This document shows positions 10,713 to 46,928 of a stretch of DNA of 46,928 bases, piece by piece. This DNA is from an uncultured Chthonomonas sp. (GTDB taxonomy: Bacteria > Armatimonadota > Chthonomonadetes > Chthonomonadales > Chthonomonadaceae): positions 1 to 46,928 of the forward strand of contig CAIONQ010000175.1 in assembly GCA_903859705.1 (NCBI GenBank). Direction: 5' to 3'. Position numbers and translations under genes: made by a program. Below the pieces are notes generated by a model. That model saw only the letters and a program-made list of their open reading frames with translations, was not told where the DNA came from and ran no database searches. Each line of letters begins with the position of its first letter. Within the stretch, counting starts at the first letter, position 1.

Positions 10713-11555
10713 ATGCGTCGTGCATTTACACTGATTGAGCTGCTCGTAGTTATCGCGATTATCGCGATACTCGCAGCCATCCTTTTCCCGGTCTTTTCAC
10801 AGGCCCGCGAAAAGGCTCGCCAAACCAGCTGCCTCTCCAACACCAAACAGATGGGCCTTGGCCTCAATATGTACAGCCAGGACTACGATGGCTTTCTTTG
10901 CCAGACAAGCTGGGAAGTTGGCAGCTTTAAGGCCAAGGTTCACTGGTCTTACCTGATCCAGCCGTACATCAAGAATACACAGATCTTCTTCTGCCCATCG
11001 GATACCACTCCGGTACTTCCGTTGAACCCAATCTGCGGCCCGAACGACATCCCAGGCGTAACCCTTTGCGATGCCCAGGCACCCAAGCTCTCTTACATCA
11101 ACAACTACAATGCCATGCCCGCTCACGACTGGATCCCTCCGAGCGAGGCTGCTTTCGATAGCCCTGCTAGCATGATTGTGGTTGCCGAGCGCCGCAACAC
11201 CCTTAACAACGCTGCAAAAACTGTTATTGGCCAGTGGAAGGGATTCTCGCCCTTCTCCGCAACCAGCACCTCGCATGGTACAAGCAGTGGTGGTGGCCAG
11301 ATTTGCCCGGGCGATACCTACGACTACGCCACCTGGGCGCAAACGCAGGCCGGCCTGCTTACAAGCAAGGATACCCCGGAGATCACCCGAATCCTCTTTG
11401 ATCGCCACCTCGGTGGCTCCAACTACTCCTTCTTCGATGGTCACTCCAAGTGGGCACGGGGTGAGCAGACTATGAACCCTGCAGCATGGCTGTACGGTTC
11501 CAGCTGGTACCCAACACCCAACCCATCTCCACTTGCGGCAACAAGCTGCCACTAA
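10713..11555 (+). CDS. DUF1559 prepilin-like protein (type II/IV pseudopilin N-terminus)
   Basis: 280 residues. The N-terminal [20 protein letters not shown] is a prepilin peptidase site plus the hydrophobic helix of pilins and pseudopilins, followed by [36 protein letters not shown], the hallmark of the DUF1559 family. Near the C-terminus H-x9-DG is visible ([17 protein letters not shown]). The family is highly expanded in Planctomycetota and Armatimonadota; its function is unknown, and surface or secretion roles are assumed from the pilin-like start. The gene stands alone, with AAGGAG about 13 bases before the ATG and a strong terminator after it. No prepilin peptidase or secretion ATPase gene is in the window. 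Confidence 0.93.
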
Positions 11556-44670: not shown

Positions 44671-45788
44671 ATCGACGTGCGTTTATCTCCGCCTGCGGCA
44701 CAGCCGCCGCAGCTCTTACCATTCCTGGCATTGCCTCTGCTGCCCCCGCCGCCACCCAAAAGTGGCGCGGGGTTAATCTGGGCGGCTGGCTTGCGCTGGA
44801 GAAGTGGATAACACCCTCAATATATGCAGGCGTAAAAGCCGAGGATGAGTACACGCTTTGCTCAGAACTGGGCAAAGCCGCCGCGGAAGTTAGGCTTCGG
44901 CATCACCGGGAAAAGTGGATAACCGACGAAGACTTTCAGTGGATAGCCGCACGCGGAATGAACGCTGTGAGGCTGCCCATCGGTTATGGAATACTGGAGG
45001 AGAACCCGCCCTTTGTAACCGGCGCAGATGTGCTGGATCACGCGTTTAAAATGGCAAAAGCCCATGGCCTATCCGTACTTTTGGATCTGCACGGGGCGCC
45101 AGGCAGCCAGAATGGCTTTGATCACAGCGGCAGAGCAGGAAACCTCGGATGGCATACCAGCACGCAGAATGTAGATCACACCATCCGCATCATAGAGAAT
45201 CTGGCCTCTTTTGTTAAGAAGTACGACAACCTGATTGCACTGGAACTGCTGAACGAGCCCCGGTGGGATGTGCCCATGGATATCCTCAAGAAATACTACG
45301 AAGATGCGTATACAGCGGCACGCAAGCAGCTCTCCCCAGAAACCGTATCCATAGTGATACACGATGGCTTTCGTGCAACGGAGTGGGCCGGATTTATGCC
45401 CCCTGCTAAGTACAGCAACGTAATTCTGGATACGCACCTTTACCAGTGCTACACCGAGGAAGATCGTAAGAACGATGCCAACGCCCACGTACATATTTCT
45501 GCCATAGATCTACGCAAGCAACTGGATAAGATGCAGAAAGAGGCTCTCCCGGCTATCGTAGGGGAGTGGTCTTGCTCGCTCGATCCACATTCGCTCACAG
45601 GCTTAACCGGGTTCGCGCGCGATGCCGCCATTCGGGCTTACGCCGATGCACAACTGCTCAGTTATGAAACCACCCGAGGCTGGTTTTACTGGACCTACAA
45701 AATAGCAGACGGCGGCACCTGGAGTTTCCGAGATTGCGTGAAGCGAGGTTGGATGCCGGATAAGTATGGAGATAACGGACTCGTTTAG
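44667..45788 (+). CDS. GH5-family glucanase, EXG1-like (GH5_9 type)
   Basis: 373 residues with a Tat-like signal (MNRRAFISACGTAAAALTIPGIASA). The mature start RGVNLGGWLALEKWITPSIY is the hallmark of exo-beta-1,3-glucanases of the fungal EXG1 type. The acid/base is E197 (ALELLNEP) and the nucleophile E300 (IVGEWSCS); LHGAPGSQNGFDHSGR is also characteristic of the group. It should act on beta-1,3-glucan, such as fungal or algal wall glucan or callose. It is translationally coupled to the transglutaminase-esterase fusion and followed by a strong terminator. Confidence 0.95.
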   Translation: MNRRAFISACGTAAAALTIPGIASAAPAATQKWRGVNLGGWLALEKWITPSIYAGVKAEDEYTLCSELGKAAAEVRLRHHREKWITDEDFQWIAARGMNAVRLPIGYGILEENPPFVTGADVLDHAFKMAKAHGLSVLLDLHGAPGSQNGFDHSGRAGNLGWHTSTQNVDHTIRIIENLASFVKKYDNLIALELLNEPRWDVPMDILKKYYEDAYTAARKQLSPETVSIVIHDGFRATEWAGFMPPAKYSNVILDTHLYQCYTEEDRKNDANAHVHISAIDLRKQLDKMQKEALPAIVGEWSCSLDPHSLTGLTGFARDAAIRAYADAQLLSYETTRGWFYWTYKIADGGTWSFRDCVKRGWMPDKYGDNGLV

Positions 45789-45796
45789 ACAACAAG

Positions 45797-45832
45797 AACA
45801 TGGCCCACAGCATCACTGCTGTGGGCCATGTT
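45797..45832. terminator. Terminator between GH5 and bioY
   Basis: 16-bp perfect stem AACATGGCCCACAGCA (45797-45812) / TGCTGTGGGCCATGTT (45817-45832) with a 4-base loop, then TTATTC; located between convergent genes. Confidence 0.92.
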
Positions 45833-45851
45833 TATTCACACTACTTCCAGA

Positions 45852-46490
45852 TTACAATTGGCTGCGCTTCTGGATGCGTTCGGTCAACGCCCATCCGCCC
45901 GGAATAAGTAGGCTGGCGGCCGCAAGCTTCAGCAGGTCGCCCGGAATAAACGGCAGCATGCCCTTCATCACTGCCGGGCCAACCCCGCCAACAAACCGGG
46001 AAAGCCACAGAACACCAAAAGTGTACGTAACTGCGCTGCCCAGTAACAGGGCGCAGGCCATGTTTCCTCGAGACCTATCCCAGCCCCGGCTGGCCAACAT
46101 CCCGATTAGCGCGGCCACAAAAGGATAGGAGAGCAGATAGCCACCGCTGGGGCAGAACAGGCGAGAGGCACCGGATGCCCCGCCCGCAAAAGCGGGCGCG
46201 CCCAGTGCGCCAATGGCAAGATAAACAAGCATGCTTAGCATGCCCCTGCGGGCACCAAGCGCCGCACCCGTAAGCAGCACGGCAAACGTTTGCAGCGTAA
46301 GCGGAACGGGGGTAAAGGGCAGCGGAATACTGATCTGGGCGCTGCCCGCTGTCACCACAGCAAACAGCGCTATTAACGCGGCATCTGTAACGGCAGAGCT
46401 CCGAACGCGGCCCTTGAGCAAAGAATCCGCCATCACCGGAAACGTACGACTTTCCATATCTACTTGTAGTACTTTCTGTTTGTATTGCAT
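45852..46490 (-). CDS. bioY: Biotin transporter BioY
   Basis: S-component of a biotin ECF transporter; about 212 residues with six hydrophobic segments. Family signatures are visible: TAGSAQISIPLPFTPVPLTLQTFAVLLTGAALGARRG, GAPAFAGGASGASRLFCPSGGYLLSYPFVA and PFIPGDLLKLAAAS (shown in pieces of one continuous protein). BioY can work alone or with EcfA/EcfT; the latter genes are not in the window. The start is uncertain between ATG 46490 and ATG 46457, neither with a good Shine-Dalgarno. A biotin-responsive operator was not recognised upstream. Confidence 0.95.
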   Translation of the reverse strand: MQYKQKVLQVDMESRTFPVMADSLLKGRVRSSAVTDAALIALFAVVTAGSAQISIPLPFTPVPLTLQTFAVLLTGAALGARRGMLSMLVYLAIGALGAPAFAGGASGASRLFCPSGGYLLSYPFVAALIGMLASRGWDRSRGNMACALLLGSAVTYTFGVLWLSRFVGGVGPAVMKGMLPFIPGDLLKLAAASLLIPGGWALTERIQKRSQL

Positions 46491-46595
46491 CTGCACACGC
46501 CGCCATCCTGATTGGCGTTATGCGGTACTCAGATTACCACAATCGTTAATCGCACGCAAACAAGCCATCATTACGGCACCACTCCCATTCGTCTC

Positions 46596-46928
46596 CCTTC
46601 GTTGCAACATACGAAATCAACCAATCTGTGGGCGCAGCCCTGCGCCTTCGTTGCAACATACGAAATCAACCAATCTGTGGGCGCAGCCCTGCGCCTTCGT
46701 TGCAACATACGAAATCAACCAATCTGTGGGCGCAGCCCTGCGCCTTCGTTACAACATACGAAATCAACCAATCTGTGGGCGCAGCCCTGCGCCTTCGTTA
46801 CAACATACGAAATCAACCAATCCGTAGGGGCGCTGCTTGCTGCGCCCTTCGTTGCAACATACGAAATCAATCAACCTGTAGGGGCGCTGCTTGCTGCGCC
46901 CTTCGTTACAACATACGAAATCAATCAA
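46596..46928. repeat. Tandem array of 49/54-bp palindromic units, open at the window end
   Basis: Seven unit starts (CCTTCGTT) at 46596, 46645, 46694, 46743, 46792, 46846 and 46900: four 49-base units, two 54-base units and a truncated last one. Each unit has TTCGT-tgcaacat-ACGAA followed by a second hairpin. In units 1-4 that hairpin is GGCGCAG-CC-CTGCGCC; in units 5-6 it is GGGCGC-tgcttgct-GCGCCC. Units 4, 5 and 7 share a G-to-A change that breaks the GTTGCAAC palindrome. No unique spacers occur. The 105 bases between bioY and the array contain no gene I can support. Confidence 0.93.

Follow-up and report, generated by a model that had tools for sequence, protein, structure and literature searches.

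A mixed head-to-tail array of REP-type hairpins at a contig end in an uncultured Chthonomonas

The right-hand end of contig C175 of an uncultured Chthonomonas (Armatimonadota) consists of short palindromes repeated in tandem, which raises the question of what these palindromes are, how they came to be arrayed, and whether the array serves its host. The window analysed here is that whole contig, 46928 bases of a draft genome of 6.24 Mb in 179 contigs (completeness 95.66). The explanation that best accounts for the locus as a whole, and in which we place high confidence, is that a repetitive extragenic palindrome (REP) was duplicated in tandem together with its flank, as a by-product of REP biology and without a dedicated host function.

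The array is real, as the original prediction held: Tandem Repeats Finder (TRF) called just one array in the window, at 46596-46928, with a period of 49, 6.6 copies, 95% matches and a score of 499. It is cut by the end of C175, which is the reason why the window stops there. Its parts are as follows.

46596..46928, plus strand: the whole array, from TRF and a whole-genome search; it runs off the contig end and would go on at C124:1-253
46598..46620, plus strand: first copy of the constant framework TTCGTTRCAACATACGAAATCAA, from a whole-genome motif search
46628..46646, plus strand: CC-loop hairpin GTGG-GCGCAG-CC-CTGCGC-C of unit 1, from an exact-copy search and folding
46677-46695, 46726-46744 and 46775-46793, plus strand: CC-loop hairpins of units 2-4, from an exact-copy search
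46824..46847, plus strand: GTAG-type REP hairpin GTAG-GGGCGC-T-GCTTGC-T-GCGCCC of unit 5, from a pattern search and folding
46878..46901, plus strand: GTAG-type REP hairpin of unit 6, from a pattern search

In each unit, framework and spacer take up 30 bp and precede a hairpin of 19 or 24 bp, and the seven copies of TTCGTTRCAACATACGAAATCAA start at 46598, 46647, 46696, 46745, 46794, 46848 and 46902. The CC-loop hairpin belongs to units 1-4, each 49 bp long, and the longer hairpin to units 5 and 6, each of 54 bp; unit 7 is incomplete, the contig end falling within it. The hairpin coordinates bear out the predicted switch from the CC-loop to the longer-loop type between units 4 and 5, and the framework copies bear out the predicted G-to-A marker, with G at position R in units 1-3 and in unit 6, against A in units 4, 5 and 7. 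A point beyond that prediction is that the spacer also varies, from AACCAATC to AATCAACC in unit 6, a shift that goes along with the later units. All units lie on one strand, rather than in the alternating orientation of bacterial interspersed mosaic elements (BIMEs). When folded as DNA, both the CC type (z -2.6) and the long type (z -3.3) did better than shuffled sequence, 2 of 200 shuffles being as good in each case, while the small TTCGT..ACGAA palindrome in the framework folds weakly (z -2.1; 12 of 200 shuffles as good). No Rfam family reached its gathering score in a scan of the window.

Judged by its sequence, the long hairpin is a GTAG-type REP, with a GTAG head, a GGGCGC/GCGCCC stem and a GCTTGC centre. 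The tetranucleotide that marks one end of such hairpins is GTAG in the long type and GTGG in the CC type; the long type, at 24 nt, lies within the 20-40 bp range of these imperfect GC-rich palindromes, and the CC type, at 19 nt, falls just short of it. At up to 2 mismatches, this genome has 25 sites that match the long hairpin, of which C175 and C124 hold 7, while G001, the genus mate, gives 94 strand matches, a count in which a near-palindromic site can appear twice. The hairpin is present in 10 of 61 genomes, this one included, against 1 match in all of them for a reversed-pattern control. These 25 sites and 94 strand matches, which leave looser members uncounted, compare with the more than 100 copies per genome usual for GTAG-type REPs. 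A stricter pattern, in which some stem positions are free, found 114 sites in 6 of the 61 genomes with 0 control matches, and across the phylum it matched in 23 of 291 genomes, with 1 control match.

Complementary changes in the stem among these copies, at pairs 3 and 6, argue further for a REP family. In a set of 21 distinct elements, drawn from the 114 stricter-pattern sites in 6 genomes, pair 3 is Watson-Crick in 17 (GC, TA, AT) and pair 6 in 16 (CG, GC, TA, AT), which 4 and 10 of 20000 shuffles respectively did as well, although these shuffle counts overstate the certainty, as related sequences are not independent. Counted by site, the exceptions are 3 A-C and 4 G-T at pair 3, and 5 T-G, 1 C-A and 1 A-G at pair 6. 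Position 7 holds a pyrimidine-pyrimidine mismatch in 113 of the 114 sites, of which 52 were written with N where the base is C or T; the remaining site has G-C. However, this mismatch is not general, as elements of genomes G196 and G219, from the phylum-wide search, show A-T or G-C instead. The original suggestion of a REP-like element is therefore supported by the GTAG head, the imperfect GC palindrome, and dispersed relatives with compensatory stem changes.

Two further searches were set aside. A pattern requiring CGCNCC, which misses the main REP type by construction, gave 12 matches against 4 in the control and was not counted; four of the 12, on C3, resemble REP variants, some of them within a 162-bp tandem repeat. 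A finder of GTAG palindromes proved unspecific: of its 3 calls in the window, that at 10746 lies outside the array, and shuffled sequence gave 1.65 calls per 46.5 kb. Among the matches listed when the hairpin letter strings were sought in the literature, no title concerned bacterial repeats. Separately, single REPs in C8, C41, C155 and C163 precede a longer shared stretch, AAGCTATCAG..GCAAACTACCG in C41 and C155 and close variants of it in C8 and C163. Because several single REPs precede this common stretch, REP dispersal may be partly due to a larger element.

The arrangement of REP plus flank, repeated head-to-tail as in the SMAG clusters of Stenotrophomonas maltophilia, recurs elsewhere. 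This genome has other head-to-tail REP arrays in C154 (76 bp x 3.0) and C132 (84 bp x 2.8); TRF found REP arrays of 36 bp x 4.1, 61 bp x 3.7, 46 bp x 6.0, 43 bp x 3.0 and 77 bp x 2.4 in G001, the 61-bp unit combining a GTAG REP with another short palindrome, GCAC..GTGC, and G028 has one of 40 bp x 3.7. Stricter-pattern neighbours within 200 bp of each other run head-to-tail in all 4 pairs of this genome, two of which belong to this array, in 11 of 13 in G001 and in 2 of 2 in G028, while in G034 and G048 they are head-to-head in 4 of 4.

Tandem repetition also occurs in this genome in another form. C91 holds an array of 72 bp x 4.1 (L122:11903-12195) of the C/T-rich CCTCGCTAAGCGCAGCG type, which is not a GTAG REP, as well as a 7-bp TCGGGTT run beside a REP (L122:16058-16089).

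Beyond the contig end, where the original prediction had proposed extending the sequence rightwards, matching units resume at C124:1-253, with five more long-type hairpins, 53/54-bp pairs and a 107-bp super-period. The proposed genome-wide count of units found 11 copies of the framework TTCGTNNCAACATACGAAATCAA at up to 2 mismatches, 7 in C175 and 4 at the start of C124, all on the plus strand; in the two genomes examined there were none elsewhere in this one, and 0 in G001. Because the framework sits only at these two contig ends, and in one orientation, the ends of C175 and C124 most likely belong to one array of at least 11 units, split by the assembler. As a separate observation, C56:1-200 and C125:1-200 open with a nearly identical stretch holding two REP variants, in which the spacer ATCAATCAA ahead of GTAGGGGCGC resembles the spacer of the window's array.

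In its origin, the array would go back to a GTAG-type REP upstream of the biotin transporter gene bioY, duplicated head-to-tail along with the 30 bp next to it, which hold the TTCGT..ACGAAATCAA framework and a short spacer. A hairpin-prone unit favours slippage during replication as well as unequal recombination, and one of these was probably the route of duplication. Later block duplication of variant units would then have produced four CC-type units on the left, and 53/54-bp pairs on the right. We think that the array is a by-product of REP biology rather than a dedicated host function, and that its copy number is probably variable. What had been described as gradual unit replacement is better seen as block duplication of variant units, with one change of hairpin type. 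Similarly, the claim that the order of changes records the growth of the array is fair if that growth was block-wise, although copy number and the middle of the array are lost in the assembly break.

The CC type would represent that change of hairpin, in which the dispersed GTAG form gave way to a GTGG form that is shorter, fully paired and seen only within this array. Its 4 exact copies in the genome are all found here, and one site elsewhere matches with 3 mismatches. The direction of change, from GTAG form to GTGG form, is one that we infer. The 5' arm of the CC type, GGGCGCAGC, is the exact reverse complement of the 3' arm of the long type, GCTGCGCCC, and the T-T mismatch is thereby gone. 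A more speculative proposal, which we think improbable, is that REPs in this genus increase in number chiefly through local amplification, in which REP and flank are copied head-to-tail, rather than by transposition, and that this has continued here without a Y1 transposase. On the same proposal, template switching could have "corrected" a quasi-palindrome to give the CC type, the shortened centre of which requires an additional event. A GTGG head is itself known among REPs, being found in Pseudomonas entries in the table of one study (PMC2817692), and in most of the GTAG-20 elements of O. terrae reported in another (PMC3733652).

Several observations weigh against explaining the locus by tandem duplication of a REP and its flank. 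Firstly, the core hairpin is only moderately abundant in this genome, at 25 sites. Secondly, the Y1 transposase family PF01797 had 0 matches in this genome (96% complete), whereas E. coli and four other controls were positive, so present-day mobility is unsupported. Thirdly, none of ten inspected transposase loci in relatives had a core-like REP (up to 4 mismatches) within 500 nt. Fourthly, bioY lies on C463 in G001, and the closest DUF1549 gene on C114, meaning relatives give the join of C175 and C124 no support; synteny in G001 neither supports nor refutes that join. Fifthly, the S. maltophilia study reports no change at four loci over 5 days' subculture (PMC2613905), and hence array growth need not be fast.

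The transposase evidence extends beyond this genome. A REP-associated tyrosine transposase (RAYT), which the original prediction had proposed looking for, was not found in this genome, while G001 has two of the 105 PF01797 matches spread over 37 of the 61 genomes. Such matches occur in 7 of the 10 genomes with long-hairpin matches, this one, G013 and G024 being those that lack them, and in 30 of the other 51; the presence of transposases and of REPs is therefore not closely tied across genomes. The ten loci inspected were chosen from the 105, not drawn at random (2 of 2 in G001, 1 of 1 in G007, 2 of 2 in G028, 2 of 7 in G034 and 3 of 13 in G048), and some of their contigs end close to the gene. 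The best core-like REP beside any of these transposases was 817 nt away (L184, 2 mismatches), and two REP-like matches with 5 mismatches within 500 nt (L190, L193) are taken as chance. Other GTAG- or GGAG-headed palindromes lie near the transposase match in L184, L189 and L192, and one lies inside it in L187, a tally made with no chance control; other REP families may accompany these transposases.

The setting of the array bears on whether it could instead act on its neighbours. On its left, the nearest gene is the following.

45852..46496, minus strand: bioY, biotin transporter family (Pfam PF02632 BioY, E 8.2e-39), transcribed away from the array

A search for named relatives of this BioY protein kept 80 of 100, which come from chloroflexi, cyanobacteria, actinobacteria, clostridia and other groups and reach no more than 53% identity in the best segment.

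On C124, the gene row runs rightward, with a DUF1549/DUF1553 gene, a DUF1501 gene, and then a PSCyt1/DUF1549/DUF1553 gene. If the contigs join as proposed, the array lies between the leftward bioY and this row, both pointing away from it. In both genomes, the DUF1549/DUF1553 protein of C124 (L120:388-6992) belongs to a large family expansion, with 79 matched stretches here and 76 in G001, counts in which one gene may appear twice.

This setting could suit a regulatory operator array, in which a repressor or an activator binds TTCGT-N8-ACGAA, and the repetition of this palindrome adjusts the divergent promoters of bioY and of the DUF1549/DUF1501 gene row. The array is upstream of bioY and, given the join, of the C124 gene row, and its framework is better conserved than its hairpin. 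However, recent duplicates resemble each other without selection, and the restriction of the framework, at up to 2 mismatches, to the two contig ends of this genome, with none in G001, speaks against such a site. In G001, the contigs of bioY and of the closest DUF1549 gene gave 0 matches to the framework with as many as 6 mismatches allowed, and neither gene has a REP nearby: the bioY contig has none at up to 4 mismatches, and the DUF1549 contig has two exact REPs almost 9 kb from the gene start, and one 4-mismatch match at 1690. The absence of framework and REP near these genes argues against a conserved regulatory role, with the orthology of the two bioY genes presumed, as their proteins are only 52% identical. 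An operator array is thus very unlikely.

Scarcely credible is a bidirectional transcription terminator, or a set of mRNA-stabilising hairpins. GC-rich hairpins are present, and a part in ending transcription and in stabilising mRNA has been hypothesised for REPs (PMC3733652). Yet the hairpins have no T-run after them, as an intrinsic terminator would, and the flanking genes point away, so no transcript would be expected to end in the array. Four terminator-like sites were called in 45700-46928, with 1.8 expected by chance, but 0 inside the array, the closest (46577-46564, minus strand) lying 19 bases to its left; C124:1-700 had 0. The original suggestion of a transcription end is consequently poorly supported. 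Equally hard to credit is a single unit multiplied by the assembler, because, despite the array lying exactly at two contig ends, C175 and C124 hold different sets of units that differ at several positions, and comparable arrays lie inside contigs (C154 here, C456 and C467 in G001).

Tandem duplication of a REP and its flank, as the preferred explanation, makes this mixed array legible as a history of duplicated units and a single change of hairpin, requiring no new mechanism and useful for studies of quasi-palindrome mutation. With it, GTAG-type REPs and their tandem arrays are added from Armatimonadota, a phylum not mentioned under that name in the text of the 2013 survey of GTAG-tagged families (Di Nocera et al. 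2013, PMC3733652), the main text of which lacks the string "Armatimonad"; among the matches listed in a literature search, that string was not found together with REP or RAYT. A practical warning is that REP arrays break assemblies, while such loci might serve as typing markers.

This array has several counterparts among known systems. It shares with the families of that survey the GTAG end, a stem of mostly 6-9 bp with complementary changes, the short loops of many families, and the existence of GTGG-tagged variants. With the REP/RAYT systems of Nunvar et al. 2010 (PMC2817692) it has in common an imperfect palindrome headed by GTAG or GTGG, and the table of that paper includes Pseudomonas REPs with a GCTTGC centre; unlike these systems, it has no Y1-type transposase found in its genome, nor were such REPs found close beside the ten transposases inspected in relatives. 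The BIME-2 elements of E. coli, as that paper describes them, likewise form regular clusters of several REPs, but BIMEs alternate in orientation, whereas this array has a single one. The closest likeness is to the SMAG arrays of S. maltophilia (Roscetto et al. 2008, PMC2613905), which also combine a 24-bp GTAG-type REP with flanking DNA, head-to-tail, and in which the REP type at a locus can be exchanged for another. In strain K279a, the 24-bp REP and 26 bp of flank form 50-bp tandem units at one locus, region I, and the number of units differs among strains, a variation demonstrated for SMAG and here only probable. The REP sequence and the lineage are different, and the weak second palindrome in the flank is a feature of this array, unlike the SMAG arrays as that paper presents them. 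As most large REP clusters in the 2013 survey include units reiterated in tandem with flanking DNA, the array is ordinary though real, its head-to-tail growth of REP and flank being already described for such repeats.
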